Shown here piece by piece: positions 5,924-47,874 of a stretch of 64,000 bases of DNA; position 1 is the first letter of the stretch, and each line of letters starts with the position of its first letter. The notes below the pieces were generated by a model, which saw only the letters and a program-made list of their open reading frames with translations, had not been told where the DNA came from and ran no database searches. This stretch comes from Desulfobulbaceae bacterium (GTDB lineage: Bacteria; Desulfobacterota; Desulfobulbia; Desulfobulbales; Desulfocapsaceae): positions 1 through 64,000 of the forward strand of contig JALSMA010000055.1 in the NCBI GenBank assembly GCA_026988015.1, read 5' to 3'. Both the position numbers and the translations under genes were made by a program.

Positions 5924-6993
5924 CATCTGATATGACTGTCACCCAGGGGCAGAACCTCTCAATCCTCCTGGTTGATGACGACTCTGCCCAGCTAATGCTG
6001 GTGCAGATGCTTGTTGAACAACAGGGCTTTGATGTGGTAACGGCCAGCAATGGCGAGGAAGCCCTTGCTCTGTTTCGTGAAAATACTGATATTCGTCTTG
6101 TGGTTACTGACCTGAGTATGCCGGTAATGGATGGTTTTGAACTGATCCGGAGGATCAGGCAGGAGCAGACCAAATATACATACACTATTGTTCTTACCTC
6201 CCATGAAGATCAGCACTCAGTTGTGAAGGCTCTAAATGATGGGGCGGATGATTTCCTGACCAAACCAGCTTTTAATGAGGAGCTGCAATTACGGATCAAG
6301 AGCGGTATCCGTCTGCTACGTCTTGAAAGTCAGGATGAACTGATTCTTTCCATGGCAAAACTTTCCGAGTACCGCAGTGAGGAAACCGGGTATCATCTAG
6401 AGCGGGTTCGACGATACACCTCGCTTTTAGCCTATGATTTACAAGAAAATTGCCCTGAGTTGAAGCTGACCACATCTTTTGTCGAGGAAATTGCCCAGGT
6501 AACCCCCCTTCATGATATTGGTAAAGTGGCTATTTCAGATAATATTCTCCACAAACCCGGCAAACTCACCAGTGAAGAATTTGAAAAGATGAAAGAGCAT
6601 GCGGCCATCGGTGGCAAGATGCTCTTGGATATTTATGCAAAGACAGGATCCCATTATCTGAAGACTGCCAGTAATATTGCAATGTATCACCATGAAAGAT
6701 ATAATGGTAAAGGGTATCCCCATGGATTAAGTGGTGGAGAAATTCCTCTCTGCGCCCGTATTATGGCTCTTGCTGACATCTATGATGCCATGACCAGTGA
6801 ACGCTGCTACAAAGATGCTTTTTCACACGAAAAGACAAAAGACCTGATTCTCAGTGAGAAAGGTGAACATCTGGATCCCCAGGTTGTTGAATCCTTTTTA
6901 AGGCAGGAAAATGTCTGGCTTGCCATTAAAGAGCGTTATCAAAAGCTGGAGGCGAGTGGTAGCTTGATAGATGATGAAATGAACCCCATTTGA
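5920..6993 (+). CDS. Response regulator with HD-GYP c-di-GMP phosphodiesterase domain
   Basis: A 357-residue RpfG-type protein. An N-terminal receiver (about 10-130) has the acidic pair in LLVDDD, acceptor Asp64 (VVTDLSMP) and a conserved Lys in FLTKPA. The HD-GYP domain (about 150-340) keeps the catalytic pair His198-Asp199 (PLHDIGKVAISD), the downstream HHERYNGKGYP with GYP at 265-267, and LADIYDAMTS. It is therefore predicted to be an active phosphodiesterase that hydrolyses c-di-GMP. Start ATG overlaps the preceding kinase stop by 4 bases, indicating translational coupling and a cognate pair. No signal peptide, so cytoplasmic. Confidence 0.95.
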   Translation: MTSDMTVTQGQNLSILLVDDDSAQLMLVQMLVEQQGFDVVTASNGEEALALFRENTDIRLVVTDLSMPVMDGFELIRRIRQEQTKYTYTIVLTSHEDQHSVVKALNDGADDFLTKPAFNEELQLRIKSGIRLLRLESQDELILSMAKLSEYRSEETGYHLERVRRYTSLLAYDLQENCPELKLTTSFVEEIAQVTPLHDIGKVAISDNILHKPGKLTSEEFEKMKEHAAIGGKMLLDIYAKTGSHYLKTASNIAMYHHERYNGKGYPHGLSGGEIPLCARIMALADIYDAMTSERCYKDAFSHEKTKDLILSEKGEHLDPQVVESFLRQENVWLAIKERYQKLEASGSLIDDEMNPI

Positions 6994-7195
6994 AGCGATT
7001 GCAGCTGCTTTTGTCTTATCCTTTTTTTGGTATTTCTCCTCTTCGAGATTGTACTTTCTTGTGGACATTCTCCCGTATCTGTTTTACTTCCCCCCTGTGT
7101 AGTTATCAAGACCGTTAAGAGTACCTGGAGTGTTTCGTGGTGTTCAGGTGCAGAGAAATGAACAGGTTGTCATTTAAATTAAGAGAACACTCACT

Positions 7196-8920
7196 ATGAA
7201 AAAAATTGGGCTAGCTCTATTGCTGTTGCTCTGTGTGGCCGGTATACTCTTTTTTCTGTTTCAGGGGAAACAGGATAAGCAGCTTCAGGCAGCAGACTGT
7301 CTTCCTGACGATGTTCTTTTCTATGGAGAACAGATTGATTTCACAGATATGTATCAGACATTCAGCAATAGTCGTTTGGGAAGAACATTAGCTGGAATCG
7401 ATTTTGCGGCCATAGGGTTGGAAATGGGGCCGGCCGGTAATTCCATTGTGGAAGTTGAAAAGTCCTGGATAGAAGTCAGGGATACTATCAAAAGCAAGGC
7501 TTTTAACGAGTTGTTTGGGAAGGAGTTCTCAGTTGCAGTTTTCTCCGGAAAATCTTTTTCCGAATCAGCTCCGGCAGGATCTCTCGAGGAGCGACTTCTG
7601 CTTATTGCCAGGCCGCGGCACAATGTTACCCTGCTGCTGTACCTCAGTCAGTTTGTAAGTAAAGATATCCCTCAAAGTACAGTTCAATATGGGGCACATA
7701 CTATCACAAGGTATCAGTTGGATGATAACAGAACCATTTCCACTGCAACTGTAGAGGGGCTTGTCCTAGCAGGACTTGAAGAGCGTCTTGTTCGGAACAG
7801 TCTTGATCATTATGACAGTGGTGAGAACCTCTTGAGCAACAATAAAGAGTATAAACGGTTACGTGAAAATTTTTCAGGCGCAAAAATGTTCAGCTATCTG
7901 TCGCTACCCGCTCTGCTTGTTCAGGAGCGGCAGATTGGCAAGGATCTCCCGGAGGAAGACAGGGAAGAATATTTCAACCTGTTGTCGCAGTGGGAAGGTT
8001 GGGGGGCAGCAGCCTACGGTGCCTGGCATGACAGTGGTGTGGTTAAGGACAAGGCGGAAATTCTTTTCGACAAGGGCAAACTTGACAGCCGAGTTGCCAA
8101 TCTCTGTGAGATAAAGCCTGGACCCAATAAGACACTTGCATTGGTTCCAACTGAGACCCTTTTTTATTATTGGACAAACACCCTGAATCTGCCGCTGATT
8201 TGGGAGATTTACTCAACAGAGGCCACCCAGCAACAACCTGAGGCGCTTAATATCCTGCGTCATGAATTACGTGACATAGCCGGAGTTGAACTTGAAGATG
8301 TGCTGGCCATGGTGGGTAATGAATTTGCCGTTATTGTTGAGGATGTGGGAGGGGAAGGTCTACCTATCCCGAAGGCAGCTATGGTTGTCCATCTGAAAAA
8401 TCCTCAGGAGTTCCTGCGGGTTTTTAATATTCTGCTGAGTAATGCAGATATACCTGTGAACACAAAATCCTATAAGGAGAACGATCTGAGCTACTGGGGA
8501 GTCGCTCCACAGGGTGGTTTGCAGCCAGCTTTTACCCTGATAGACAAGTATCTTCTTGTGTCAAACTCCCTTGACCTAGTGAAACAGATAGTGGATACGA
8601 GTAATGATCCTGCTCTCAGTCTTCCTGTCAGTTCTTTTATGACAGAGGCTGGAAAGGATCTTTTGAAAAATAACAACTCGGCTACTTATGTGCACATCGC
8701 AAAACTCGCTGATGCCATGGAAGAACTGGTAACATGGGTTGGTGCAATGGCAGTTCTTCAGGGACCTGAAGTTGCCAGAAACTCAGATATTGTGGTGAAT
8801 AAACTTGCTCTGCCCCTTCTTGATGGGGTGGCTATGTATACGCAACTATGGTCAAGGTCAGTTATAACTGAAGACAGTATAGTATTGGAATCAACCACAG
8901 CCACAGTTCATAAACAATAA
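7196..8920 (+). CDS. Exported or membrane-anchored protein of unknown function
   Basis: A 574-residue protein with an N-terminal hydrophobic segment (about 4-22, KKIGLALLLLLCVAG) that would act as a signal peptide or anchor; the remainder looks periplasmic and soluble. It opens with DCLPDDVLFYGE and later has repeated alpha/beta stretches such as AMVVHLKNPQEFLRVFN and DKYLLVSNSLDLVKQIV. That layout resembles DUF3352-type proteins, but I cannot assign it firmly. No catalytic motif was recognised. It stands alone between the HD-GYP gene (202 bases upstream) and the next gene (138 bases downstream). A short AGAGAA sequence precedes the ATG. Confidence 0.85.
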   Translation: MKKIGLALLLLLCVAGILFFLFQGKQDKQLQAADCLPDDVLFYGEQIDFTDMYQTFSNSRLGRTLAGIDFAAIGLEMGPAGNSIVEVEKSWIEVRDTIKSKAFNELFGKEFSVAVFSGKSFSESAPAGSLEERLLLIARPRHNVTLLLYLSQFVSKDIPQSTVQYGAHTITRYQLDDNRTISTATVEGLVLAGLEERLVRNSLDHYDSGENLLSNNKEYKRLRENFSGAKMFSYLSLPALLVQERQIGKDLPEEDREEYFNLLSQWEGWGAAAYGAWHDSGVVKDKAEILFDKGKLDSRVANLCEIKPGPNKTLALVPTETLFYYWTNTLNLPLIWEIYSTEATQQQPEALNILRHELRDIAGVELEDVLAMVGNEFAVIVEDVGGEGLPIPKAAMVVHLKNPQEFLRVFNILLSNADIPVNTKSYKENDLSYWGVAPQGGLQPAFTLIDKYLLVSNSLDLVKQIVDTSNDPALSLPVSSFMTEAGKDLLKNNNSATYVHIAKLADAMEELVTWVGAMAVLQGPEVARNSDIVVNKLALPLLDGVAMYTQLWSRSVITEDSIVLESTTATVHKQ

Positions 8921-9058
8921 CCTGAATTCGTGAGCGTCCGGTAGTGATGCAGTTTGGTTTTTTACAAAAAATCTGCTTGGTAGTAAGATATCTCTGAATT
9001 TCAGAATATTACCAGAGAGGCAACCACGATCTGGTCACGGGTTCAGGAGGGAATAACC

Positions 9059-9439
9059 ATGGAAAAGCTTGTCGCAGAGTTAAAGCAGATTGTTTCTTTT
9101 AAAGATAGTACAGATATCGGTGATCTTGTCCTCATTGTGGCTAAAGAGCCGAAGATGTTGCTCTATGCCCTAGTCACTGATATTGTAAGGGACAGTTCCC
9201 GAAGAGATGAATGGTGGCATCTTAGCTTGACATTTCTCACGGTACCGCCACAGGAGGTTACCTGGACATTGCGGACCGCACAAATGACAGGTATGGAAGT
9301 TTTTACGATGGGTGGGGAAGAACGATTTGTAAAGGCAGTCAATCTGATTCCCTCTATCTCAAAAAATCCTGATCCCCCCTTGACGTTTGATGAACAAGAT
9401 CCCCCTTCAAAAGCACCATTCCTGAAAAGGGTCAAGTAA
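9059..9439 (+). CDS. Conserved small cytoplasmic protein coupled to thiL, function unknown
   Basis: A 126-residue soluble protein with a strong ribosome site (AGGAGGG, about eight bases before ATG). The sequence is beta-rich in the middle (LVLIVAKEPKMLLYALVTDI, then WWHLSLTFLTVPPQ) with a proline-rich acidic tail ending in a basic KRVK. No known domain was recognised. Its TAA shares one base with the thiL ATG (TAATG), so the two are translated together. That context hints at a shared expression unit rather than a role in thiamine synthesis. Confidence 0.8.
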   Translation: MEKLVAELKQIVSFKDSTDIGDLVLIVAKEPKMLLYALVTDIVRDSSRRDEWWHLSLTFLTVPPQEVTWTLRTAQMTGMEVFTMGGEERFVKAVNLIPSISKNPDPPLTFDEQDPPSKAPFLKRVK

Positions 9440-10425
9440 TGGCTGCATGGACAGAGCACAGGCTGATTGAAAAAATTCGTAAGGCCTGTGTCAATAGGGC
9501 TGACGGCTTATTGACCTCCATTGGTGATGACTGCTGTGAAGTGACAGCACCCGGATCTTTTCTCATTTCAATGGACAGTCTTGTTGAAGGCGTTCATTTT
9601 GACAGCAGTTTTCATCCCCCCCATCTGCTGGGAAGAAAATCCATTGCTGTCAACTTAAGTGATATTGCTGCAATGGGTGGAAGGCCCCGTTTTGTTCTCC
9701 TGTCCCTGTGTCTCCCTGAAGATCTTGAGTGGCACTGGATTTCCTCCTGGTTGGACGGTGTTTTTGAGATTCTCACTGAACATCGGTGTGTTCTGATTGG
9801 AGGTGATACCGTAAAGGCTGGTGAACTGGTGGTAACCGTAACTGTTCTTGGAGAACCACCTGACAGTGGTGCGATATATCGTAACAATGCCGCAGAAGGC
9901 GATACCGTTTGGGTCTCAGGGAACCTTGGCTCGGCCGGCGGTGGTTTGAGAATATTAAGTGATTGTGCGTCAACAATTGCAGATAGTTCTGCTCACTATG
10001 CTTCCCTGGTGAAGGCACATCTTGATCCTGTTCCCCTTGTTGCACTTGGGCAGAGACTTGCCCGGAGTGGTCTTGTGACAGCAATGCAGGATATTTCAGA
10101 TGGTCTTGCAACTGACTTGGCTCATATCTGCAAGGCTTCGGGGGTGTCAGCAACCATTACTGCTGATTTACTGCCATATCTACCAGAACTCGCCAACCTT
10201 TCAAAGAGTCTCCACCTTGACCTTGATAAGTTAATTCTCTGTTCTGGCGAGGATTATCAGTTGGTGTTTACGGTCAAAGGCGGGTGCGAAGATCTGTTTT
10301 TTGAACAGTTTAGTGAAACTGTATCTGCTCCTGTCAAGATCGGGATGATAGGGAGTGGGGCTGGGGTTTTTCTGAAAAAAGGAGGTCAGAGTGTTGAGAT
10401 TAGCTTCCAGGGCTATGAACATTAA
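9439..10425 (+). CDS. thiL: Thiamine-monophosphate kinase
   Basis: A 328-residue enzyme that phosphorylates thiamine monophosphate with ATP to the active cofactor thiamine diphosphate in the cytoplasm. Family hallmarks of the AIR-synthase/ThiL fold are visible: IGDDCCEV near residue 27, SMDSLVEGVHF near 50, GRKSIAVNLSDIAAMGG near 70, GGDTVKAG near 115, MQDISDGLATDLAHI near 215 and SGEDYQLVF near 270. Length matches the family. The start overlaps the stop of the small upstream gene by one base. The downstream deaminase gene is convergent, 25 bases away. Confidence 0.93.
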   Translation: MAAWTEHRLIEKIRKACVNRADGLLTSIGDDCCEVTAPGSFLISMDSLVEGVHFDSSFHPPHLLGRKSIAVNLSDIAAMGGRPRFVLLSLCLPEDLEWHWISSWLDGVFEILTEHRCVLIGGDTVKAGELVVTVTVLGEPPDSGAIYRNNAAEGDTVWVSGNLGSAGGGLRILSDCASTIADSSAHYASLVKAHLDPVPLVALGQRLARSGLVTAMQDISDGLATDLAHICKASGVSATITADLLPYLPELANLSKSLHLDLDKLILCSGEDYQLVFTVKGGCEDLFFEQFSETVSAPVKIGMIGSGAGVFLKKGGQSVEISFQGYEH

Positions 10426-35542: not shown

Positions 35543-38500
35543 TCAGGGAGTATTGCGTAAGGTTGCAAGAAAGCTGGTTATCAGTTTCCCTGCCTTTTCA
35601 AAATCAAAACGTGTCACGCAACGGTCTATTTCAGTAATTTCTTTATCCCAGGTACTACCTAGGAAGTATGGTTGTATTTGCTGCCAGCATTGTACAGCGC
35701 GGAAATCCATCTGTTTGAGTTGTTGAAGCAACTTTTGGAGAAGGCGGACTGGCTCATCCAAGTTTGTGGATGAAAATGGTATATCTTCAAGGATCTGGAA
35801 GCTGCCCCGGTTTTCAAGGGAACAGATCGATTGTTGCAGTTCTTCCCAGGCAATGGCAAGTTGGCTCAACAGGGGGGCTGTACTCTGCCCATTGGATATA
35901 GCCTCTTCGAGCCTGCTGGCGACATCTTGTATCCTATAGGCACATAAATTTCCGGCTACACCCTTCACAGTATGAAAAAGACGCTTGAAGGTTTCCTGGT
36001 CTTTATGGTGCAGTAGTTCAACGGCATCACTATAGCAGGATCCATATTCCGTGCTGAAATCTCTTAAGAGGCGCAGGTAGAGTTTGCTGTTCCCTTCAAG
36101 ACGGGCAATACCACTTTGGAGATCTATCCCGGGTAGTGCATTGGGGAGGTTTCTCTCAGAGTTTGTTACAGGGGCATGTTGTTTTTTTGCCTTGGAAATG
36201 TGGGTGCCTACCTCACCACTCTTTTTTCCAATCCATAGCGCCAGGGTGGTAAATAGCGCAGTAATATTTATTGGTTTTCCTATATAGTCATTCATACCAG
36301 TAGCCAGGCCTTTTTCACGATCACCGTTCATGGTATGTGCTGTCATGGCAATAATCGGGATTTTTGAAAAAGGTATATCTTGGGTGGCTTCTATTTCACG
36401 TATCTTTTTTGTTGCCTTGTATCCGTCGAGTACCGGCATTTGGATATCCATTAAAATAGCAGAATAGTGGGAATTGTTTGCAAGGCTTGACCTAAATTTA
36501 TCAACAGCGATAACACCATTTGCAGCAATATCAACAGTGATATGTGCTTTGGCCAGGATTTCTACAGAAATTTGCTGGTTAATGGCATTATCTTCAACAA
36601 GAAGGATGTGTGCACCATCAATAAGATGCATTGCATCAAGTCTTTGATCTTCCACCCTGTATTCATGTGACAGGAGTTGTTTGTTTACATCGGTTTCATT
36701 CTTAAACTTTAGAATAAAAGAAAACGTACTTCCTGCTTCCGGATTGTCGGTAATCATAATGGTGCCCCCCATTATTTCGATAAGTTCTTTAGAGATGGCA
36801 AGTCCAAGGCCGGTTCCACCATATTTACGGGTGTGGGAGGGGTCGATCTGGCTGAAGGCATCAAAAAGTGTTGAAAGTTTATCCGAGGGGATACCTATTC
36901 CGCTGTCTGTAATGGTAAACTTTATACGGGAAAGAGACTTACTTTTATTGACCAGTGATATAGTAGCAGTAACCCCGCCCTGTTCTGTAAATTTAAGCCC
37001 GTTGCCAATGAGGTTGGTCAGAACTTGGCGTAATCGTGTCTGGTCTCCATATATAAATGTTGGGACGTCATCGTCTATGTGTAATTCTAAGCTTAGTTTC
37101 TTTTTCTGAGCTTGGTGAACGAAAAGATTTTCAAGTTGATTTATAAGATCGGGTAATGAGAACAGGCTTTCATCAAGTTCAAGTTTTCCTGCTTCAATTT
37201 TTGAATAATCAAGAATGTCGTTAAGTATTTTGAGGAGTCCCCTTGCAGAAGAATGAATTTTATTGAGATAATCAAACTGACGGTCAGTGAGAGATGTCTC
37301 AAGAGCAAGTTCAGAAAGGCCTATCAGAGCATTCATGGGTGTTCGTATTTCATGGCTCATATTTGCAAGAAAAAGACTTTTCAGTCTGCTGGCCTCCTCA
37401 GCTTCTTGTTGTGCTCTTTGCAATTTTGCCTCTGTTGATTTTCGTTCCGTGATATCTTCCTTTACTGCAACGAAATGACGGATGTTGCCATCAGCATCTC
37501 GAATAGGTGATATTGATGCGAGTTCCCAGAAAAGTTCTCCATTTTTTTTGCGGTTGCAGAATTCTCCGTGCCAGTCTTGACCTGACAGAATGGTATCCCA
37601 CATTTCTTTGAAATGGAGATTTGATTGTAGTCCAGCATTTAAAATCCTCGGGTTTTGGCCAATGGCCTCTTCTGGACTGTAAAGGGTCAATTCTGAGAAT
37701 TTAGGGTTCACGTATTCGATTGTCCCATTTCTGTCTGTAATGACAATGGATACTGGGCTGTTTCTGACTGCTTCTGCAAGTTGTCTCATCTCCTCCTGGG
37801 AATGAAGATGTTCCGTCTTTTCACGATCAAGCTCTCTGTTTCTGGTGGCGAGAGTCTCGTTTATTTGCATGAGCTCTTTAGTGCGGTTTTCAACTATCTT
37901 TTCAAGGTTGTTACGCTGGACATTGAGTTGATCTAGAATCTGCTGCCGCGTAACCACTTCAGTTAAGAGTTGTTCCGTAGTTTCTTTGAGACTATGGACA
38001 GTGTCCGTCATGACTCTGCCAATTTGATTGAACTCATAGATTGGGCTCTGCTGGTAGCAGGCATCTTCTTTTTTGACTATCTGGGCAGCAAATGAGGAGA
38101 GACTGGCAAGAGGTTTTATGAATATCCGCTTTACCAGGAAGAATGTCAGTGTCGATAGAGCTGCAGCGAGCAATAACAGGTAAATAAGTTTACTCTGATA
38201 GGCAGCTTTACTCTCAGCGAATATGGATTCATGAACAATAAACACAAGTTCAAGTGGGCTTTCCTGGTTATTGATTCTAAGATTTTTGTGATGGACCACG
38301 TACCCATCATTGAGAATTGAAAATGAAGAACCGGAAGAGTTCAAAGCTTCGTTAACGGCGGCCTGCAGCAGAGGAGCATCAGCGTATTCGGTAGACACAA
38401 TGATCCTTCCCTTATGAACAAGGAGCAGTGCCTCGGCCTGTATTTTGTCACGGAGGTTTTCTGCCAGAGAGGTATCAGTGTTGAGAACCATACCACCAAA

Positions 38501-39070
38501 TAGATTTCCGGTTATTATCCCTGTAACGTCGTTGATGAGTGGAAAATAGTTTCCAGCGATAACCAGGTTGGATACTTCTTCCGGAAATATGAAAAGAGTG
38601 ACAGAGTGATCGGGATCAGGAGTATTTTCTGTCAGAATGGGCAGGACAGTTTCCAAATCTAAAAAAGGCGAACTGGCATCAACAAATATCTTGTTCTCTT
38701 TGTCTTTGACAAAGAGAACATTTAGACGGTTGTGAGTGTCTGATGAAAGGGTTTTTTGGAGGATTGTAGATATATTGGTGCTATCAGAAGCGGTTAGCGC
38801 TTCTTTTAATATGGGGTCTGCTGCAATGTATTTAGTGTTGAGTCCCAGAGTTTCAAAAATAGAATTAAGACTGTTCTCCGTGTTAACATGATTTTGAAAC
38901 AAATATCCTTTCAACTGTTCAGTAATGACTTTATCGTTGAACTGATAGTTCCAGTAAAGGAGAGGGATGGTGAAAAGCAAAAAAAGAAACACAAAATAGA
39001 TTGGAACTACCTGGGAAAGCCTTTTTCCACCGGGCTGATTTTGAGTTTTGAGTTGTGGCTTAAGGTTCAT
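35543..39070 (-). CDS. Membrane hybrid sensor histidine kinase (PAS-HisKA-HATPase-REC-Hpt)
   Basis: A 1175-residue phosphorelay kinase. Transmembrane helices at about 21-44 and 294-318 flank a large periplasmic domain, probably a double Cache. A HAMP-like region, a long coiled coil (about 365-430) and a PAS domain (about 438-550) follow. HisKA has His573 in ANMSHEIRTPMNALIG; the ATPase keeps DSGIGI and GTGLGLAISKELIE. The receiver acceptor is Asp875 (ILMDIQMP). The Hpt has His1033 (LFHTVKG), and about 80 residues follow it (LLQKLLQQLKQMDFRAVQCW). The same tail recurs at the end of the 39.8-41.9 kb kinase. It is the last gene of the leftward signalling island, 144 bases after the pseudogene. 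Confidence 0.94.
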   Translation of the reverse strand: MNLKPQLKTQNQPGGKRLSQVVPIYFVFLFLLFTIPLLYWNYQFNDKVITEQLKGYLFQNHVNTENSLNSIFETLGLNTKYIAADPILKEALTASDSTNISTILQKTLSSDTHNRLNVLFVKDKENKIFVDASSPFLDLETVLPILTENTPDPDHSVTLFIFPEEVSNLVIAGNYFPLINDVTGIITGNLFGGMVLNTDTSLAENLRDKIQAEALLLVHKGRIIVSTEYADAPLLQAAVNEALNSSGSSFSILNDGYVVHHKNLRINNQESPLELVFIVHESIFAESKAAYQSKLIYLLLLAAALSTLTFFLVKRIFIKPLASLSSFAAQIVKKEDACYQQSPIYEFNQIGRVMTDTVHSLKETTEQLLTEVVTRQQILDQLNVQRNNLEKIVENRTKELMQINETLATRNRELDREKTEHLHSQEEMRQLAEAVRNSPVSIVITDRNGTIEYVNPKFSELTLYSPEEAIGQNPRILNAGLQSNLHFKEMWDTILSGQDWHGEFCNRKKNGELFWELASISPIRDADGNIRHFVAVKEDITERKSTEAKLQRAQQEAEEASRLKSLFLANMSHEIRTPMNALIGLSELALETSLTDRQFDYLNKIHSSARGLLKILNDILDYSKIEAGKLELDESLFSLPDLINQLENLFVHQAQKKKLSLELHIDDDVPTFIYGDQTRLRQVLTNLIGNGLKFTEQGGVTATISLVNKSKSLSRIKFTITDSGIGIPSDKLSTLFDAFSQIDPSHTRKYGGTGLGLAISKELIEIMGGTIMITDNPEAGSTFSFILKFKNETDVNKQLLSHEYRVEDQRLDAMHLIDGAHILLVEDNAINQQISVEILAKAHITVDIAANGVIAVDKFRSSLANNSHYSAILMDIQMPVLDGYKATKKIREIEATQDIPFSKIPIIAMTAHTMNGDREKGLATGMNDYIGKPINITALFTTLALWIGKKSGEVGTHISKAKKQHAPVTNSERNLPNALPGIDLQSGIARLEGNSKLYLRLLRDFSTEYGSCYSDAVELLHHKDQETFKRLFHTVKGVAGNLCAYRIQDVASRLEEAISNGQSTAPLLSQLAIAWEELQQSICSLENRGSFQILEDIPFSSTNLDEPVRLLQKLLQQLKQMDFRAVQCWQQIQPYFLGSTWDKEITEIDRCVTRFDFEKAGKLITSFLATLRNTP

Positions 39071-39214
39071 TGTTGAATGTTAATCCTGGAAAATATTGAT
39101 ATTTTGATTGTGACATTATCATTTTTTGTTCCTGCCTGTTTTCTTGCCCTGTAGAGAGGCTCATCGGCAAGTTAAATACACTGTTCGAGGGTAAAGTTGT
39201 TTCCACTTAAATAT

Positions 39215-39762
39215 TTAGCCCCCTGTGCACACGGTAATCTGGAGCTGTTGGTCATTTTTTGAAGAGGGCACATGGGCATCTGCTATTTCCTCACGGAGAT
39301 TGTTGAATAGCATCTTGGCAGAAATGAAGGTGAGGTCAGCGATAAGGATGCAAAATTCTTCGCTGCCAAATCTCGAAATTATTGCAGAATGGGAAATGGA
39401 TTCCCCAATCAGTAATGATATCATTTTGATGACTTTATTACCAGCATCATGGCAATAGGTATCAATAACTTTTTTAAAAAAGATAATGTTTATCATTGCA
39501 CATTTAACAGAGTGGTCTTGTTTTTTAAGCAGATGAGAGCAGCCGTTGTCCGGCATTTCTTTAATTACTTCTCCATTAAGTGCATCCGGTAGATTAGAGT
39601 CAACAAGTGCGACATCGAAGTGGGCATGGTCAATTGCTAGTATTTTATGGTCTCAGCCAAGGTCCTTGTCCAGATAATTACCGCATCAAATGCTGTTTGA
39701 ATTCTCTTTTTTCCGATGTTTCTAAATATTGGACTATCTTCAACAATTAACACAGGACTCAT
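39215..39762 (-). pseudogene. Decayed REC-GGDEF (diguanylate cyclase-type) regulator gene
   Basis: The frame starts at ATG 39762, overlapping the upstream kinase stop by 4 bases, and encodes a receiver start MSPVLIVEDSPIFRNIGKKR. It hits a stop near 39637 just after an AAAA run. One added A would restore ILAIDHAHFDVALVDSNLPD, a receiver continuation. That frame then jumps from GEVIKEMPD to a GGDEF fragment: FFKKVIDTYCHDAGNKVIKM and SRFGSEEFCIL, where GGDEF has become GSEEF. The protein ends at ITVCTGG, short of the domain end. Most of the receiver, any second receiver and the start of the GGDEF domain are deleted. Three separate lesions make a simple sequencing error an insufficient explanation. 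Confidence 0.82.
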
Positions 39763-41888
39763 ACCTGACTCCTCTTTGACTGGTCACTCTGTATCTGCTG
39801 TAAAATACTAGAGAGCAAGCCAGCAGCTTCTTTGAACTTGTATTGCGATATATGGTTGTCTATATCCTTGACGGTTTTTGATTCAAGACTTGGAAGCAAC
39901 CCTTTGAGATCGTTCCATTTTTCAGTAGAATCGAATTGATTTGACTCAAGCTTTGTCAGGAGTTCCAGGATAATAACTTCTGCTTTTTCATTGCAGCAAG
40001 CAAAATCAAACGGAAATGATTTACTGCTCTGGCGGTGTATTGCGGGACAGGTTTTTTTCTCTGGGGATGGCTGAGTTGGCTTCATACCAGCCACCATTTT
40101 AGTTCGCGAAAATGATTTGGAAGACGGGCTGTTGCCTGGACTTTTAATATATGAAAATGAGATTGAGAAACTGAAGGTGCTTCCCTGACCAGGTTCGCTG
40201 ACAACCTTAAGTTTACCTCCCATAAGCTCCACTTGTCGTTTAGTTATCGCAAGTCCCAGTCCGATCCCACCAAATTTTCTGGTGTTTGATTCATCAGCCT
40301 GGGAAAAAGAGTCGAAGAGTGTTTTTTGCTGATCTTTACTGATACCGATTCCTGTGTCGGAGATGGAAAATCTAATGGTGGCCAGTTCGTCTGAGAGATG
40401 GTGCAGCCGCACATCGATAGTAACGGAACCGTGTTGAGTAAATTTAAAACTGTTGGCAAGTAACTGAATGAGAATCTGTTGCAGTTGTTTGCCATCACCT
40501 GAAATTATATCAGGAAGCTTTGTGTCCAGGTGAGTGGTAAAAGAAATGTTTCTCCTGGCAGCCTGATCTTCAAAAAGATAAACCATCTCTTCTAATGTTT
40601 CCCGAATTCTGAAATCTTTGTTCTGGAGAGGAATGCTGCCGGTTTCAAGTTGAGAGAAGAAAAGAATTTGATCGAAAATTTTCAGTAAGGATCGTGACGA
40701 ATGTTTTATGTTGCCAAGATATTCTGTCTGCGTCTTATCAAGAGCAGTCTCAAGGGTTAAATCACTGAAACCTATTATGGCGTTCATGGGAGTGCGAATC
40801 TCATGACTGATATTGGCAAGAAATCTCGATTTTGCCATACTTGCCCGATCCGCATCTTCTTTTGCCTTTCTGAGAAATATTTCTGTCTTTTGTTGTTCAG
40901 TTATATCCTGGTAGGTATGGAGCAGGGCTTTTTCTCCTTTGAAGATGATATGGAGGTGGCTAATTTCAACAACTATACCGGGTCCGAGTTTGTCAAAAAG
41001 AGCTATGGCCTTTTTATCAAGATTGTGGCTTTTGGGTGGAATAGGGCAGGCATCACAATGCGTCAGTCCACTTGCATATGCGTTGAAACATTTTTGACCA
41101 ATGGTTGCCTTACCCTGTAAATCAATGAGAAATTTACTCTGGTACAAGATGGTACCATTGCTACTCACAATGTCCATAAGTATAGGAATCGAATCAAGAA
41201 TGGAGTTGAGCATATTCTCATTTTCAACAACCACATTTACCATGGGGCGGAACCCAAATACAATAAGTGCAATTAACAGGATAATCATGAGAAAAAAAGT
41301 AAGCAGGGCGCTGCTTTTCAGTATCTCAGTGTATCTGTTACTCTCTTTTTCATATTGTTTTACAACAGCATTTAGTGCGGTTAACAATGGTCCCCTTGCG
41401 TATACAGAGAGATTCTTGAGGCTAACCTTACGATCACTGGTCGATGTCATCATGAGAAAATCGTTTACGCTGCTGATGTATTCAGTGACCTTCTGATCCA
41501 CTGCAAAAGGTGGTGAAAAATACATTTCGCGTAGTGTGGGGCTCAGGGTTACCATTGAGTTATTGTTACCATTTCCAGAGGTGAGGTGCTTGTGAGATGT
41601 CTCTAGAAGTTTTAGAGAATCGTGAAGCCGTTCTCGCAACTGGATGCATTTTTCTTTTGGGCTGCACTCAAACAGCTCATGGCTGAGTAGAGCAATTTGC
41701 TGTGAAAGCATGCGTTGCCGGCCCGATACATTGATGACGGAGCCATAGCCATCCTGAAGTTTGATTATATATTCAAGGACAATCAGGGAGGAAAGTGAAA
41801 GACAAAAAACCAGGATCACAGCCAGCATATAGCGTATGGTGAGCTGTTTTTTGCGTTGTGTTTTGTGGTTAGTAGCGTCTATCATCAC
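39759..41888 (-). CDS. Sensor histidine kinase with PilJ-type N-terminal domain
   Basis: A 709-residue membrane kinase. The N-terminal transmembrane helix (about 20-40) leads into a PilJ/NarX-like periplasmic helix with the motif VINVSGRQRMLSQQIALLSHEL; a second helix lies at about 195-213. A PAS-like region with a cysteine pair follows (CFNAYASGLTHCDACP). HisKA has His362 in ANISHEIRTPMNAIIG; the ATPase keeps DTGIGI and GIGLGLAITKRQVELMGG. After it there is no receiver or Hpt, only a 90-residue tail (VIILELLTKLESNQFDST...) like the post-Hpt tail of the 35.5-39.1 kb kinase. That suggests internal loss of REC and Hpt. Upstream gene ends 18 bases before. Confidence 0.92.
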   Translation of the reverse strand: MMIDATNHKTQRKKQLTIRYMLAVILVFCLSLSSLIVLEYIIKLQDGYGSVINVSGRQRMLSQQIALLSHELFECSPKEKCIQLRERLHDSLKLLETSHKHLTSGNGNNNSMVTLSPTLREMYFSPPFAVDQKVTEYISSVNDFLMMTSTSDRKVSLKNLSVYARGPLLTALNAVVKQYEKESNRYTEILKSSALLTFFLMIILLIALIVFGFRPMVNVVVENENMLNSILDSIPILMDIVSSNGTILYQSKFLIDLQGKATIGQKCFNAYASGLTHCDACPIPPKSHNLDKKAIALFDKLGPGIVVEISHLHIIFKGEKALLHTYQDITEQQKTEIFLRKAKEDADRASMAKSRFLANISHEIRTPMNAIIGFSDLTLETALDKTQTEYLGNIKHSSRSLLKIFDQILFFSQLETGSIPLQNKDFRIRETLEEMVYLFEDQAARRNISFTTHLDTKLPDIISGDGKQLQQILIQLLANSFKFTQHGSVTIDVRLHHLSDELATIRFSISDTGIGISKDQQKTLFDSFSQADESNTRKFGGIGLGLAITKRQVELMGGKLKVVSEPGQGSTFSFSISFSYIKSPGNSPSSKSFSRTKMVAGMKPTQPSPEKKTCPAIHRQSSKSFPFDFACCNEKAEVIILELLTKLESNQFDSTEKWNDLKGLLPSLESKTVKDIDNHISQYKFKEAAGLLSSILQQIQSDQSKRSQV

Positions 41889-41906
41889 TGTTGATTGCAG
41901 ATTGTC

Positions 41907-44900
41907 TCAGGGTACCTGGAAATAATTCTGGTATTTTTCACTGGATCGCCATGACTCTAGAATAGTGAATAGTTCCTCTGCAGGTACCGGTGGACTAACC
42001 AGGTAACCCTGTATTTCGTCACAGTCTATGGCGTGAAGAATTGCCAGCTGTTTGCTGGTTTCAACTCCTTCGGCTATGACAACCATCTTTAGCTGGATTG
42101 CGAGGGAAACAATGGCCTTAACGACAGCACAGTCATTGGCATCTTCTGTTATGTCCTGGATAAATGAGCGATCAACCTTCAGGATATCGATGGGAAACTT
42201 TTTCAGATAACTGAGTGAGGAGTAGCCCGTGCCAAAATCATCAACGGAGAGAATTACTCCAAGTTGTTTAAGTTCCCATAGACTGGCTATGGTTTTGGTC
42301 ACATCATCCATGATTACTGTTTCGGTAATCTCAAGTTCCAGGAGATGGGGGGGGACTCCAGTTTCTTGAAGAATATTACTCACTAGGTTAACAAGTTTAT
42401 CATTGGAAAATTGTCTGCCAGAGAGGTTGACAGAAACCCTGAGATCCGGAAAAGTTGAATGCCATTTCTTGATTTGGTAACATGATTCCCTGAGGACCCA
42501 CTCCCCTATTTCATTTATTAAGCCGGTATCCTCAGCGACAGGAATAAAGTCATTGGGTGGGATGATTGTACCTTGGTGTAGCCAGCGAACAAGGGCCTCC
42601 ACACCAACGATTGTCCCCTTTCTGATAGAAACTTTTGGTTGGTAGTATACCAGGAACTCTTCATTTCCTATGGCCTTACGGAGGTTTGCGGCCATCCTGA
42701 AGCGGGTATCTGCGTTCTCTGTCATAGCTTTGGTATAGAACTTGATTTGACCCTTTCCGGCAGCCTTTGCATGGTACATGGCCGTGTCTGCATTTTTAAG
42801 GAGCAGCGTGGATTTAGTCCCATCTTCGGGGTAAATGGTAATACCAAGGCTTGCCGCGATCTCAACCTGTTCATCGCCCAGGGTATAGGGAGCGCTGAGA
42901 GTTGCCAGGATTTTCTGGGCGAGAAGTGCCAGATTGTTTTCCTGTTTGATGTTTGTGAGAATGACTACAAACTCATCTCCGCCGAGACGGGCGACAGTAT
43001 CACTTTCTCGAATACTGTCCTGAAGCCTTTGTGCGACCTGGATCAGGAGCTGATCACCTGCAGGGTGGCCAAGGCTGTCATTTACCTCTTTGAATCCATC
43101 AAGATCAAGAAGTATGAGACCAAGGTCCTTTTGTTCCCGTTTGCTCACTGCAAGATCATGTTGCAGGCGGTCGTGAAAGAGAAGACGATTAGCCAGTCCG
43201 GTCAGGGGATCGTAGTGGGCAAGTTTCTCCAACTTTTCTTCTGTTTCTTTAATGGCGGTAATGTCTGTTGAGAGAGCAACGTAATTGGTTATTTTGTTGT
43301 CCTTATTTTTTACAGCAGAAATGGAAAGCCATTTTGGGTAGATGGAACCATTTTTTCGTCTGTCCCAGATCTCACCTTGCCAGTACCCTTTGGACAGAAG
43401 ATCCTGCCACATCTGTTGATAAAATTTTTCATCATGCTTTCCGGATTTCAGTATTCTCGGATTTTGTCCTAAAATTTCATCGCGTTTATAGCCAGCCATG
43501 GTAACAAAGGCATCATTTACTTCAAGTATGGTTCCTTCAGCATTGGTTATCACCAGGGCTTCCTGGGTGATTTCAAGATATTTTGATGCCAGCCGCAGAT
43601 CCTGTTCTATTTTCTGTCGTTCTCGAATCTCGTCTTTCAACTCTTCGTTAAGGAGGGCAAGGTCATGGGTTCGTTTCTGCACCTTGTCTTCGAGAGAATG
43701 TGCAAGATCAAGAACTTCTTCTCTGGAATCTTTAAGATGGTGCAGCATGATTTGCATGGAACTGGCAAGCCTTCCTACTTCATCACTGCCTTGAACGGGA
43801 AGTTCAATTTCCTCTCCGCCTGCAATTCTGTCAGCGGCTTTGGTTAATTCTTTTAAGGGCCTGGTAACAAGGTAGGCCAAAAGTGAGGTGAGCAGCGAAA
43901 TCATCAGCACTGCACTGAACAGGATAAATATGAGTTTATTTCGAAAAGCTAGAGACTGCTGGTGCAGAATGGCAAGAGATACCTCGGCACCGAGTATCAT
44001 ACAGCGTTCAGGGTTGAGTAAATCAAAATGAAATTTTCGCAAGGCCAGTCCGACTTCTGTGCCCATACGGTCAAGACTGAGAATTTCTCTGTTATCGCTC
44101 CCATCTATGAAATCCTTGACTGGATAATCATCCTGAATACGTCGTGGACGATTGAATTCAAAACCAAAGGTTCGATCTTTATCGCGATGGATAAGGTAAT
44201 CACCATATTGATTTGTCATCATATACTTGGTGTTGCTATGATCCTGGCTGAACGATTTTGTGATGACCTGGAAATCAGCATTGATAATAAGGATTCCGGT
44301 GACCTGACCAGGCTTGTCAAAGATTGGAGTCGCAAAGCGGATAACAGGTTGCAGGGGGAGGGTAATGCGATCATGTTCCCGGTTCAGGTTGACTGGCGAA
44401 AAGTAAACCTGTCCCTGTTTCAGAGTGATGGTTTGCTGATAGTATTCACGATGTACTTTACGTTGCAGGTGCTCCTCTTTTACCTCAACAATGTCACCTG
44501 CAACTTTGTCGAGTCTGACGTATTCACTACCGCCATCACGATTTAGAATAAGCCGAATACTTAAATAAGCTGCGCGTTGCTGCAAAACTGTACTGAGAAG
44601 TGTGGAGAGTCTCTGTCTCCAGATCGTCTCTGTTGCGTTTTCCTGTTCATCATAACCATCACCACTTGCAATGCAGCGTAGAATTCCCTGTACTGACGGG
44701 GATTCTGCAAGAAACAGGGCGTCTTTATGGAAGAGTTGAAAACTGGTTTCCATACGTACGGATTCCCTTTGCAAGGAGTCCTGAAGACGGATCAGAGACT
44801 CCTGGCGAAGGATGTCGTCTGCATTTCTGTAGGCAAGAAATCCAATAAGGATAACCCCCATCCCGGAAACAAAAAAGGAGAGCAGGGCAATTTTTACTGG

Positions 44901-44921
44901 CATTGTCTGGAAAAACCTCAT
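41907..44921 (-). CDS. Membrane GGDEF-EAL protein with PAS and HAMP domains
   Basis: A 1004-residue c-di-GMP enzyme. Transmembrane helices at about 11-30 and 328-349 enclose a large periplasmic sensor, probably a double Cache. HAMP (about 350-400), coiled coil, PAS (about 445-555), GGDEF (about 565-730) and EAL (about 740-990) follow. GGDEF is intact at Gly647 (ARLGGDEFVV), preceded by an RESD inhibitory-site motif. EAL is intact at Glu775 (VEALVRWLH), with DDFGTGYSSLSYLKKFP and ETVIMDD. So both synthesis and hydrolysis motifs are present; the net activity cannot be told. ATG overlaps the repeat-protein stop by 4 bases. Confidence 0.95.
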   Translation of the reverse strand: MRFFQTMPVKIALLSFFVSGMGVILIGFLAYRNADDILRQESLIRLQDSLQRESVRMETSFQLFHKDALFLAESPSVQGILRCIASGDGYDEQENATETIWRQRLSTLLSTVLQQRAAYLSIRLILNRDGGSEYVRLDKVAGDIVEVKEEHLQRKVHREYYQQTITLKQGQVYFSPVNLNREHDRITLPLQPVIRFATPIFDKPGQVTGILIINADFQVITKSFSQDHSNTKYMMTNQYGDYLIHRDKDRTFGFEFNRPRRIQDDYPVKDFIDGSDNREILSLDRMGTEVGLALRKFHFDLLNPERCMILGAEVSLAILHQQSLAFRNKLIFILFSAVLMISLLTSLLAYLVTRPLKELTKAADRIAGGEEIELPVQGSDEVGRLASSMQIMLHHLKDSREEVLDLAHSLEDKVQKRTHDLALLNEELKDEIRERQKIEQDLRLASKYLEITQEALVITNAEGTILEVNDAFVTMAGYKRDEILGQNPRILKSGKHDEKFYQQMWQDLLSKGYWQGEIWDRRKNGSIYPKWLSISAVKNKDNKITNYVALSTDITAIKETEEKLEKLAHYDPLTGLANRLLFHDRLQHDLAVSKREQKDLGLILLDLDGFKEVNDSLGHPAGDQLLIQVAQRLQDSIRESDTVARLGGDEFVVILTNIKQENNLALLAQKILATLSAPYTLGDEQVEIAASLGITIYPEDGTKSTLLLKNADTAMYHAKAAGKGQIKFYTKAMTENADTRFRMAANLRKAIGNEEFLVYYQPKVSIRKGTIVGVEALVRWLHQGTIIPPNDFIPVAEDTGLINEIGEWVLRESCYQIKKWHSTFPDLRVSVNLSGRQFSNDKLVNLVSNILQETGVPPHLLELEITETVIMDDVTKTIASLWELKQLGVILSVDDFGTGYSSLSYLKKFPIDILKVDRSFIQDITEDANDCAVVKAIVSLAIQLKMVVIAEGVETSKQLAILHAIDCDEIQGYLVSPPVPAEELFTILESWRSSEKYQNYFQVP

Positions 44922-46771
44922 TCCTGGACCTCTCCGGTTTCTGCGAGACCAATTAGCTGTTGCAGCAGGAAGATTGATTGCCTGAGATTTTGTTCAACAT
45001 CACTGGAATTTTTTCTGGGAAATCCAGGAAGGGAGGATGGGAAAACAGTCACATCGAAGTGAAGTTTCAGACCTCGGATTTCAGTAAGTATTAATTGCAG
45101 TTCATTATACACAACAGTGGTGGTGGTCCTGCTGTTGGGAGAAGATAGTGGAAAAATTGGGGATTTTATTCCTGCTCTGCGTTGCACAAGCTTGACAAGA
45201 TCCCAAACCTCATGACTGGTTGCGAGAACGTGGCGTGGCTGTAATGCAAGATCTGACTGCACATCTACCTTCTCAATAATGTTAACTCCAAGGTGATCTG
45301 AGATGATGAGGAGTTCCTGGCGGATCTTGTCGGCAAGTACATAGGTATCTCCCGGGCTGTAACTGGGACTCCCCAGGAGGATATCAATTTCGTCTGCAAT
45401 CTCTCTCGTTTTGTTATAGACATCGCTGGATGTTTTTCCCTGGATTCGACTTCGGTGATCATTATACCAGGGGACGGACTCAACACCGCCAGATCTATAG
45501 AGTACTTCAAGTTCCATATCCAACCGGGTAACGAGTTCAAAAACTTCGTCAGGGGTAATTGTGCGAAGAGGAGCAAATGGTACGGCAATGGGGCCAAGTT
45601 CCTTACTGCTTCTCAGCAGACTTACCTGCCGGATACATTCAAGTGTCTTGTCATATACATGCTGCGGAGCAAGACCTTCGATGGGGAACTTTTTTTCAAT
45701 GGTCTGTCGAATTCCAAGTCGCTCTTTATAATTGTGTAATTCCCAAAGAATATGATCCGCAACCTGATAGACATGATCCGGTTTTTTGACCAGTGACTCC
45801 CGGTCATACTGGCTGAGTGTTTTGTTGAGAGGAAAGAGGGGCATGAGTTCTCTGGCCCATTTCAAATTTCGAATTATATCGTCAGAGTCATGGCGTTTTT
45901 CAGGCCTTTTGAGAGGGAAGGTTCGTTCAAGGCCGAGACGGAACTTGATTCTTTGCAGTTCGGCACGAATTCCAAGCAGACCATCATAAACGTCTGATAT
46001 GGTGATTACACGACGTGGAACTTTGTTGGGTACGACAGGTGCTAACCAGAGGTTCTTCTGAGCCTTGGCAATAGTTGTCATAAGTTCAGATACAGCCTGA
46101 AGGGCATGATTTGGGTGATGGCCTGTGGCTAGGGGGGGCTTGTCTTTTGTGCTGATAATATTCTGAGAGTTTCTGAGAAAACGGATTTCGGAAAGGATTT
46201 GCTCCGTGAGTGCATAAGCATCATTAGGGCTGACACCGCGCATTCCAAGAAGTGGATTCAGTGCGTATGATATTTCCCAGAGTTTTTGATACACATCATT
46301 AGGTGATTTACCGATGATTTTCTCATGGCTGAGGCTGTAAGGTGCGATGTTGTGTTTATATTCGAGAATGAGCCAGAGTTCCTGTTCAAGTCGCTGAACC
46401 AGTTCGTAGACTTCCAGGGGGGTGATTCTTCGTGCCGGGTAGGCAGGGATGGTAATTTCTCCTAGATCCTCAATACGTCTGAGACGATTGATTTTTTCCA
46501 TAACCTCAAAACACTTCTGCAGCACATGGCTGGGTTTTTTGTTTATTTGAACAGGAACTTTGGGCCATGGGCTTTCAATATCATACAGGGATCTTATCTG
46601 TTCGACCTGGGAGCGAATAAGGAGGGTTTTTGCGTATACATCATCCGGGGTTCTTTGTGTCGCCAGCAGGGGGCGCGCACAGACCAATAACAGGCAGAGG
46701 ATGACAGCAGTTATCCAGAGGGAAGAGAGAGCGTTCCGCAACTTGAGAGGCGGTAAGGAAAAATTTGTCAT
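44918..46771 (-). CDS. Periplasmic helical-repeat protein, novel, coupled to the GGDEF-EAL gene
   Basis: A 617-residue protein with a signal peptide or anchor (hydrophobic 16-36, possible cleavage after LLAT). The rest is made of sixteen units of 25-40 residues, each beginning with a motif like P-x-D/H-V-Y and then a helix with I..E...L. Motif valines or equivalents fall near residues 44, 82, 121, 159, 185, 222, 260, 298 and again near 333, 371, 411, 450, 476, 514, 553, 591. The second set repeats the first with an offset of 289-293. No known domain was recognised. Its stop overlaps the GGDEF-EAL start (ATGA), and its own start is 11 bases past the HD-GYP gene. A periplasmic partner of the GGDEF-EAL sensor domain is a reasonable inference. 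Confidence 0.85.
   Translation of the reverse strand: MTNFSLPPLKLRNALSSLWITAVILCLLLVCARPLLATQRTPDDVYAKTLLIRSQVEQIRSLYDIESPWPKVPVQINKKPSHVLQKCFEVMEKINRLRRIEDLGEITIPAYPARRITPLEVYELVQRLEQELWLILEYKHNIAPYSLSHEKIIGKSPNDVYQKLWEISYALNPLLGMRGVSPNDAYALTEQILSEIRFLRNSQNIISTKDKPPLATGHHPNHALQAVSELMTTIAKAQKNLWLAPVVPNKVPRRVITISDVYDGLLGIRAELQRIKFRLGLERTFPLKRPEKRHDSDDIIRNLKWARELMPLFPLNKTLSQYDRESLVKKPDHVYQVADHILWELHNYKERLGIRQTIEKKFPIEGLAPQHVYDKTLECIRQVSLLRSSKELGPIAVPFAPLRTITPDEVFELVTRLDMELEVLYRSGGVESVPWYNDHRSRIQGKTSSDVYNKTREIADEIDILLGSPSYSPGDTYVLADKIRQELLIISDHLGVNIIEKVDVQSDLALQPRHVLATSHEVWDLVKLVQRRAGIKSPIFPLSSPNSRTTTTVVYNELQLILTEIRGLKLHFDVTVFPSSLPGFPRKNSSDVEQNLRQSIFLLQQLIGLAETGEVQE
44921..46651 (-). repeat. Two-fold internal duplication of an eight-unit repeat array (protein level)
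   Basis: Residues 41-329 (46651 down to 45785) and 330-617 (45784 down to 44921) of the repeat protein correspond unit by unit. Examples are EVYELVQRLEQEL with EVFELVTRLDMEL, SPNDVYQKLWEI with SSDVYNKTREI, and SPNDAYALTEQI with SPGDTYVLADKI. The DNA itself is diverged, so the duplication is old. Confidence 0.8.
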
Positions 46772-46782
46772 TTGCAGAGTAG

Positions 46783-47874
46783 TCAGGTTGTCTCTTCAGG
46801 ATCAGTGTATTTTTGAGCTATGTCTTTAAAGGTATCCTGAATTGCAGAAAAGGCATCTACCAGCAGTGGGTCAAAATGCTCACCTCTGCCTTTCATGATA
46901 ATGCTGACTGCTTTTTTATGGGGGAATGCAGGCTTGTAGACACGTTTTGAGATCAGTGCGTCATACACATCTGCAATGGCCATAAGTCGCCCTGAAAGCG
47001 GAATGTTTTCACCGGAAATCCCTTCAGGGTAACCCTGCCCATTCCATTTTTCATGATGACTGTAGGCAATCTCCCTGGCAAGGGTGAGGAACGTAGTGGT
47101 GTTTTTGCTGCCAAGTGCTATTTCTGATTTTACGATGGCATCACGACCATAAGTGGTGTGATTCTTCATCTCTTCAAACTCCTCTTCTGTTAGTTTACCA
47201 GGTTTCAAAAGGATTTTGTCGGCGATCCCAACCTTGCCGATGTCATGAAGGGGTGCAGATTTAAAAAGAAGATTAATTCTTGAGCGGTCAAGGTAATCCC
47301 AGTATTCTCTGCTGTGCATCAGATGTTCGGCGAGGGTTTTTACGTAATGTTGAGTGCGCATGATATGTTTTCCCGTTTCATTGTCACGGGTTTCAGCAAG
47401 AACAGCCATGCCGTAAATAGTTACTTCCTGGGTATGGACAATCTCCCGGGTTCGTTCCGCTGCTTTTTTCTCAAGTTCACGGTTCTGGTCGTAGAGAGCG
47501 AGGTGGGTCTGGACTCTGGCACGAACAATGGCCGGGCTGATGGGTTTGGTTATGTAATCAACCCCTCCAACTTCAAAGCCCTTGGCTTCATCCTCATTCT
47601 CGCCCATGGCAGTAACAAAAATAACCGGTATTTTTTTTGTGATAACGCTCTGTTTGAGGCGACTACACACTTCATATCCATTAAGTCCGGGCATCATGAT
47701 ATCGAGGAGTATAAGATCTGGTGGAGGCTGTTCCTGAGCCAGACGTAAGGCATCATGACCATTGGTGGCCACAAGGATATCGTATCTGTTTTGCAGGGAC
47801 TGCCCTAGCAGGCTGATATTAGCAGGTACATCGTCAACTATGAGAATTTTTTGTTTTGTGAGAGGGACGGCCAT
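46783..47874 (-). CDS. Response regulator with HD-GYP c-di-GMP phosphodiesterase domain
   Basis: A 363-residue RpfG-type protein. The receiver (about 9-125) has LIVDDV, acceptor Asp58 (LLDIMMPGLNG) and FVTAMG with DYITKPIS. A coiled linker leads to the HD-GYP domain with His210-Asp211 (PLHDIGKVGIAD), HHEKWNGQGYPEGI and IADVYDALIS, all intact. It should be an active c-di-GMP phosphodiesterase. GGAG lies nine bases before ATG. It is the first gene of the leftward signalling operon. It differs in sequence from the HD-GYP regulator at 5.9 kb though the layout is the same. Confidence 0.95.
   Translation of the reverse strand: MAVPLTKQKILIVDDVPANISLLGQSLQNRYDILVATNGHDALRLAQEQPPPDLILLDIMMPGLNGYEVCSRLKQSVITKKIPVIFVTAMGENEDEAKGFEVGGVDYITKPISPAIVRARVQTHLALYDQNRELEKKAAERTREIVHTQEVTIYGMAVLAETRDNETGKHIMRTQHYVKTLAEHLMHSREYWDYLDRSRINLLFKSAPLHDIGKVGIADKILLKPGKLTEEEFEEMKNHTTYGRDAIVKSEIALGSKNTTTFLTLAREIAYSHHEKWNGQGYPEGISGENIPLSGRLMAIADVYDALISKRVYKPAFPHKKAVSIIMKGRGEHFDPLLVDAFSAIQDTFKDIAQKYTDPEETT

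Follow-up and report, generated by a model that had tools for sequence, protein, structure and literature searches.

A family of helical-repeat proteins encoded beside bacterial membrane receptors, with a proposed role as periplasmic accessory subunits

The repeat gene and its hierarchy of helices

The minus strand of a 64,000-nucleotide stretch of a Desulfobulbaceae genome (the window; contig JALSMA010000055.1, assembly GCA_026988015.1) carries a gene, P0001, for an apparently secreted repeat protein, to judge from its sequence, and directly behind it a gene for a membrane receptor with GGDEF and EAL domains. The two genes and their parts are as follows.

44918..46771, minus: repeat gene P0001, an open reading frame (ORF) of 617 amino acids (aa), ATG at 46771, stop codon at 44918-44920
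46658..46771, minus: probable signal peptide, residues 1-38 (hydropathy; a hydrophobic segment without a lipobox)
46226..46645, minus: four-helix module 1, residues 43-182 (this and the next three from profile matches and modelled helices)
45803..46225, minus: four-helix module 2, residues 183-323
45353..45778, minus: four-helix module 3, residues 332-473
44921..45352, minus: four-helix module 4, residues 474-617
44918..44921, minus: stop/start overlap of repeat gene and receptor gene, 4 bases, ATGA type (coordinates)
41907..44921, minus: partner receptor, 1004 aa, with transmembrane (TM) segment, dCache-like sensor (PF21623), TM segment, HAMP, PAS, GGDEF and EAL (Pfam, hydropathy)
43941..44831, minus: periplasmic sensor region of the partner, residues ~31-327, the proposed binding surface (hydropathy; co-variation from kinase-type pairs, the window pair being excluded)

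By hydropathy, P0001 has a hydrophobic N-terminus; regular repeats make up the mature part behind it. The original prediction, made from the letters of the window, had described these repeats as sixteen units opening on a P-x-D/H-V-Y motif and arranged as a duplicated array of eight, with corresponding units 289-293 residues apart. In a comparison of P0001 with itself, the best ungapped run indeed lay at offset 289 (score 124; best of 100 shuffles, 53), with further runs at offsets 140 (score 100), 291 (92) and 149 (75), and a gapped alignment of the two halves scored 259, whereas 1000 shuffles of one half gave at most 73. Aligned in the register of the motif, the one-helix units gave a mean BLOSUM score of 0.55, compared with at most -0.59 at seven other registers; the helix bodies were closest to the helix at the same place in the other four-helix modules (0.30 vs -0.17). 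When the modules of ~145 residues were aligned, module 1 showed 25% identity with module 2, 34% with module 3 and 26% with module 4. The runs at offsets 140 and 149, together with the four aligned modules, thus resolve the sixteen units into four modules of four helices. The duplication of the halves stands, while the deeper unit is the four-helix module, four in a row, giving a hierarchy from helix to module (~145 aa), to eight-helix half, to sixteen helices.

AlphaFold2, run on an alignment of 16 four-module proteins with P0001 first, returned an all-helical model (mean predicted local distance difference test [pLDDT] score 85.1, predicted template modelling score [pTM] 0.82). Its main helices start at residues 42, 80, 118, 157, 182, 220, 258 and 296 in the first half and at 331, 369, 407, 448, 473, 512, 551 and 589 in the second, i.e. 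2-4 residues before the sixteen positions originally listed for the motif, and the helix starts agree with the predicted correspondence of the halves. A main helix of 14-23 residues, mostly ~21, is modelled at every motif, joined by non-helical linkers of 16-21 residues that shrink to only 3 residues after helix 4 and to 6 after helix 12. The model of a two-module relative (L038; 51 aligned rows, pLDDT 94.5, pTM 0.89) follows the same helix plan. As neither model contains a strand (DSSP), the α/β two-lobe fold of solute-binding proteins is not predicted. The S/T-P-x-D/E-V-Y motif resembles a helix capping box, which we take to mark the helix start; this would explain its recurrence, yet the bodies of helices at the same position are also alike. 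Like TPR, Sel1, HEAT and ARM proteins, the family has tandem helical units; unlike in those classes, the modelled unit is a single ~21-residue helix plus a linker of 16-21 residues, with neither a helix pair nor the two- or three-helix unit of TPR, Sel1, HEAT or ARM.

The original prediction knew of no family of this build, and P0001 found no match above the cut-off in Pfam, NCBIfam or PHROGs. Its relatives gave scattered weak matches: no Pfam family was matched by more than two family members in either scan (51 and 16 members; the tables for these print no cut-offs), and TPR, Sel1, HEAT and ARM were absent from the Pfam families matched by any of them at E ≤0.01. We took as chance the sole sub-threshold Pfam match of P0001 (DUF4130), PexRD54_WY (2 of 51 and 1 of 16 members, best E 1.2e-4; 13.7 bits vs a cut-off of 27), six families matched by one member each (DUF4056, DUF2844, UMP1, MOV-10_Ig-like, MMR_HSR1_Xtn and Sigma70_r3; best E 1.1e-4), NF008952 (one member, E 6.1e-4) and CFAP129 (E 0.37). 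The Pfam scans of P0001 and the 51 + 16 members yielded neither a PepSY match nor a cell-wall or anchoring domain, a plasmid search with P0001 gave no match, and a PDB sequence search gave no standout match. Across 84 family ORFs of at least 280 aa (duplicates counted), a lipobox-like site was found in none, the median number of cysteines after residue 60 was zero and CXXCH was absent.

Structural comparison with the PDB was similarly quiet. The best Foldseek E values were at noise level (0.33 for the 16-helix and 0.36 for the 8-helix model), with TM-scores normalised to the model of ≤0.13 and ≤0.19, respectively, among the matches listed; the best VIA-align Z-scores were 5.2 (root-mean-square deviation [rmsd] 3.5, 105 aligned; 16-helix) and 5.4 (rmsd 3.7, 105 aligned; 8-helix). 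Everything retrieved, also with the 8-helix model from viral structure models, was at noise level, and many of the rows were helix bundles, the fumarase/argininosuccinate lyase superfamily for example; this is no proof of a new fold. We conclude that the family is new and, as far as the models go, its fold perhaps new as well.

Distribution of the family and pairing with receptor genes

Homologues are 8-helix (~300 residues) or 16-helix (~600 residues) proteins. A profile of the module (E 0.01) matched 15 of 257 genomes of the window's order. With a two-module profile (A2, E 0.001; centre genomes are included in the counts and the samples overlap), matches were obtained in 16 of 257 genomes in the window's class (one of them, G147, doubtful and two, G010 and G016, with remnants only), in 2 of 395 in a phylum sample (the window's genome and G506), in 1 of 22 in the class of G506 (G506 itself), in 15 of 210 in the order of a tubeworm endosymbiont, in 19 of 274 in a sample of that endosymbiont's class, in 22 of 48 in the class of a Magnetococcales genome and in 16 of 199 in the order of a Sulfurimonas (one doubtful). 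The matches in G147 (L048, E 4.6e-4; a 549-aa protein of another kind) and G1087 (E 3.9e-4) are apparent false positives and were not used for gene context; they are still inside the class (16/257) and Sulfurimonas-order (16/199) tallies, respectively. A scan of named genomes found 18 loci, three of them (L073, L081, L083) on contigs already used as query, from Desulfobulbaceae, Desulfobacteraceae, a deltaproteobacterium, Chromatiales, Magnetococcales, Sulfurimonas, a Rhodospirillales bin and Gammaproteobacteria including symbionts of Escarpia, Lamellibrachia and Taylorina. The family is thus patchy across Desulfobacterota, Gammaproteobacteria, Magnetococcia and Campylobacterota.

In a quick tree of halves (Shimodaira-Hasegawa-like approximate likelihood ratio support only; L174, L180, L188, L213 and L230 left out), 34 N-terminal halves lie on one side of a branch (support 100), 34 C-terminal halves form another group (95) and 44 two-module proteins stand apart, with long branches meeting elsewhere. 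Because N- and C-terminal halves each group together, the 16-helix form would most simply have been derived once from the 8-helix form, by one old duplication.

Neighbourhoods were taken for the family loci except one whose gene runs to the contig end (G847:C189). Setting aside a contracted gene (L004), a fragment (L044), a duplicate (L177), genes broken into pieces (L089/L179, L090, L222) or cut by a contig end (L174, L232, L080) and two with a cut partner, the dCache start being visible in both (L077, L192), we obtained 79 intact genes with a readable neighbour, 31 of them four-module and 48 two-module. A signalling gene adjoins 74 of the 79, and by hydropathy nearly all of its products have two TM segments (partners of L175, L193, L196, L197, L202 and L206 have only one at the threshold). 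Thirty of the 31 four-module genes lie directly 5' of a gene with a dCache-type sensor, with gaps of -23 to +73 if the earliest start codon is taken, and 16 of the 31, the window locus among them, show the 4-base overlap. In four two-module loci (L209-L212) the usual receptor-second order is reversed, the repeat gene following the gene of a methyl-accepting chemotaxis protein (MCP) by 11-14 bases. Two genes of L229 were counted as paired although they lack the usual receptor plan; excluding both gives 72/79. These two (G900, 6757-10351) share one GGDEF/EAL cluster near two-TM PAS and GGDEF-EAL proteins, and a two-TM PAS protein between them is seemingly cut off from a GGDEF piece.

The pattern held in a test set of 20 loci from the endosymbiont-class sample that were fetched after it had emerged. 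Without a duplicate of L082 (L239) and an unconfirmed ORF (L257), 18 remained, including L240 and L241 from the genome of L082, which was already represented by another copy; a receptor lies beside the family gene in 16 of these (exceptions, L238 and L253), counting L248 with an MCP split into two frames and L250 with a receptor at ~170 bases. As background, 18 of 428 other ORFs of at least 200 aa in the first set of loci are receptor-like, and 67 of the 428 carry any signalling output.

Outputs were called by single-sequence searches, supplemented by Pfam for the window partner, 6 + 10 partners and two upstream MCPs. They comprise GGDEF-EAL, GGDEF, histidine kinase and chemoreceptor, so that the GGDEF-EAL neighbour of the original prediction is just one of several outputs. 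Only the sensor was recognised in eleven four-module partners and in the cut-off partner of L199; Pfam identified two of the eleven (L084, L214) as histidine kinases, and the remaining nine, of similar length, were taken as kinases by likeness. The sensors are of at least two types, dCache-like and, in several MCP partners and the partner of L072, four-helix-bundle-like (4HB-like). The partner chemoreceptors of L045, L046 and L188 (Pfam) and L047 (likeness only) carry a hemerythrin-like domain, a hint of oxygen-related sensing.

The window's own partner exceeds the curated Pfam cut-offs for PF21623 (54.2 bits, cut-off 27), GGDEF (175.4 bits) and EAL (247.7 bits), while dCache_1 (PF02743) stays below its cut-off (28.5 vs 45 bits). 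Hydrophobic segments near residues 7 and 323 flank the presumed periplasmic domain, and a third, weak one lies at 931. The overlap with a GGDEF-EAL gene and the presumed periplasmic sensor of its product agree with what had been read from the letters.

Co-variation with the sensor and the cluster of the window

Co-variation was analysed for partners with a recognised kinase domain; the GGDEF-EAL pair of the window is excluded. With the kinase effect removed, repeat-protein distances followed sensor distances with a partial rho of 0.77 for four-module (n = 14) and 0.85 for two-module proteins (n = 24), and none of 500 permutations reached either value. With the sensor effect removed, the corresponding values for the kinase domain were 0.34 and 0.25. 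In a quick tree of sensors, the 24 sensors of two-module partners form one clade (support 95) and the 29 sensors of four-module partners one group, inside which falls an unpaired, very long row (L266), neighboured by a second long unpaired row (L268). Of the eleven PF21623 sensors that stand unpaired in six genomes, ten fall outside the two paired groups.

Three further genes flank the pair in the window.

46783..47874, minus: upstream gene for a 363-aa receiver + HD_5 protein (Pfam; HD-GYP type by eye), separated from the repeat gene by 11 bases
39759..41888, minus: downstream PilJ-domain histidine kinase, 709 aa (Pfam)
35543..39070, minus: hybrid histidine kinase, 1175 aa, last of the signalling cluster (ORF, named by eye)

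Together these genes form a compact minus-strand cluster (35543-47874) with c-di-GMP-making and -breaking enzymes in one gene row, in the order receiver-HD_5, repeat protein, PF21623 GGDEF-EAL receptor, PilJ-domain kinase and hybrid kinase. The order is the same in G010, where the counterpart of the hybrid kinase is 75% identical.

A putative receptor subunit, its alternatives and its meaning

Based on these results, we consider it fairly probable that P0001 is secreted as a soluble, all-helical protein and serves the adjoining membrane receptor as an accessory subunit (co-receptor) that tunes its output. The protein would be exported, as its signal-like N-terminus suggests, and would fold into an array of one-helix units, each capped by a P-x-D/H-V-Y box. 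Gene pairing and co-variation point to docking on the partner's periplasmic dCache-type sensor; a signal bound or relayed by P0001 would then change the state of the sensor, and the changed sensor would tune the cytoplasmic output, here the GGDEF-EAL c-di-GMP enzyme. Across the family loci the pairing persists while the receptor output is exchanged; this points to one sensing subunit that can be plugged into signalling systems of many kinds. Of the original idea of a partner that may sense or relay envelope signals to c-di-GMP, the partnership survives, P0001 being very likely a partner of the receptor, and c-di-GMP as the output was too narrow, the family also standing beside kinases and chemoreceptors.

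Several observations weigh against a co-receptor role. An intact copy is present in 1 of 20 genomes of the window's genus, several of these being incomplete metagenome-assembled genomes (MAGs). In G010 the receptor is 85% identical, and the repeat gene has shrunk in frame to 154 aa (L004, 9734-10198), retaining the protein start, a stretch like helix 3 (by eye) and C-terminal helices; since the receptor is kept there, it may still work without the repeat protein. Likewise, 11 of 18 PF21623 matches in six family-holding genomes have no adjoining repeat gene, and 5 of the 79 and 2 of the 18 family genes have no receptor alongside. Among the former (L181, L182, L183, L225, L228), L183 (5302-6225) lies among COX3, SCO1/SenC and UbiA genes, L182 (6490-7389) lies beside SCO1/SenC, and L225 meets a receiver-GGDEF gene tail to tail. 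Moreover, neighbouring stretches of DNA are inherited together and the partner gene turns its sensor end towards the repeat gene, so recombination deeper in the partner gene could account for some of the co-variation.

Other degraded loci were seen. In G016 (L044, 520-1049), the beginning of a repeat protein precedes a short frame in which a receiver-like motif was recognised by eye; this may be what is left of a pair after a deletion that included its middle. L089 and L179, on the same contig of a Lamellibrachia symbiont MAG, are a four-module gene in pieces; the receptor of the Lamellibrachia symbiont has 516 aa, compared with 567 aa in the Escarpia symbiont.

An unlikely alternative is that the repeat protein is a chaperone or stabiliser, which aids folding, dimerisation or integrity of the sensor and carries no signal itself. 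The mostly fixed order, with the repeat gene first and, at four-module loci, mostly overlapping the receptor start, would suit such a helper, as would a range of partners that includes both dCache-like and 4HB-like sensors. However, the lasting co-variation with the sensor fits a specific interface, and related PF21623 sensors do without a repeat protein. The repeat protein is what these systems have in common, since their sensors belong to two types or more and their outputs to four; this speaks for a role in carrying the signal rather than for one as a chaperone, albeit not decisively. We think it less probable still that the helical array gauges the envelope, touching peptidoglycan, the outer membrane or a pilus while the receptor reads its position or strain. 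Sixteen helices per chain, a length doubled by duplication and a PilJ-domain kinase within the same cluster are in line with such a gauge; in the scanned members, however, neither a lipobox nor a cell-wall or anchoring domain was found, and 48 of the 79 family genes encode proteins of just half this length. We give least credence to an operon bystander, whose independent periplasmic binding or enzymatic function merely rides with receptor genes: the copies next to oxidase-related genes (L182, L183) and those otherwise lacking an adjoining receptor (L181, L225, L228, L238, L253) speak for it, but 90 of 97 pairings (74/79 and 16/18), in several bacterial groups and with exchangeable outputs, speak against it.

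Known systems offer models for the proposed co-receptor. YfiR-YfiN and LuxP-LuxQ each combine a periplasmic protein with a receptor that has a c-di-GMP enzyme or kinase output. The available text of PMC12714742 describes how, in Vibrio cholerae, DbfQ binds the sensor of the kinase DbfS with a Kd of 30 nM, and terms the Pseudomonas aeruginosa counterparts of DbfQ PepSY proteins. That of PMC8846402 gives two further periplasmic protein-receptor pairs, HmsC-HmsD and ArtI-STM1987, of which STM1987 is a dCache cyclase; the dCache sensors dealt with in it mostly bind ligands themselves. As described there, DbfQ-DbfS is a precedent for the proposed docking and tuning, in that a secreted periplasmic protein is encoded beside a receptor, with direct action on the sensor proposed for the repeat family; the latter differs in its 8 or 16 helices, its lack of a PepSY match and its additional cyclase and chemoreceptor partners. 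HmsC-HmsD, ArtI-STM1987 (as far as described), YfiR-YfiN and LuxP-LuxQ likewise join a periplasmic partner to a c-di-GMP-enzyme or kinase receptor, but the repeat family has no Pfam match there and only helices in its models. The sensor of the window's partner belongs to the PF21623 (HK_sensor_dom_bact)/dCache receptors; unlike most dCache sensors in the available text of PMC8846402, the subset found here comes with a dedicated secreted partner. Accessory periplasmic proteins of receptors are thus a known kind, while we met this family, its helix hierarchy and its range of receptor types in none of the libraries and literature listings searched; among the papers listed, we recognised none on the P-x-D/H-V-Y motif or the family. 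One of them, PMC2447325, is indexed with a single 'PDVY', of which its available main text shows none.

More tentatively, the family may represent a new fold class that serves as an interchangeable periplasmic subunit for kinases, c-di-GMP enzymes and chemoreceptors across Desulfobacterota, Gammaproteobacteria, Magnetococcia and Campylobacterota, i.e. a plug-in used with several outputs, possibly for an oxic-sulfidic signal. Many of the named hosts are sulfur-cycling bacteria, and this, together with the hemerythrin-like partners and the orphans near oxidase and SCO1 genes, is why such a signal comes to mind; drawn from host names and general ecology, the link to oxic-sulfidic habitats is a lead only.

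To our knowledge, the ligands of most bacterial receptors are unknown. If it is true that a secreted subunit senses for many receptors, screens on isolated dCache domains would miss the signal. Given that no Pfam or NCBIfam model was found for the family, that its structural model is confident and no solved counterpart to it came to light, and that it brings together the principal outputs of signalling in bacteria, a single binding experiment would open up a class of sensors.

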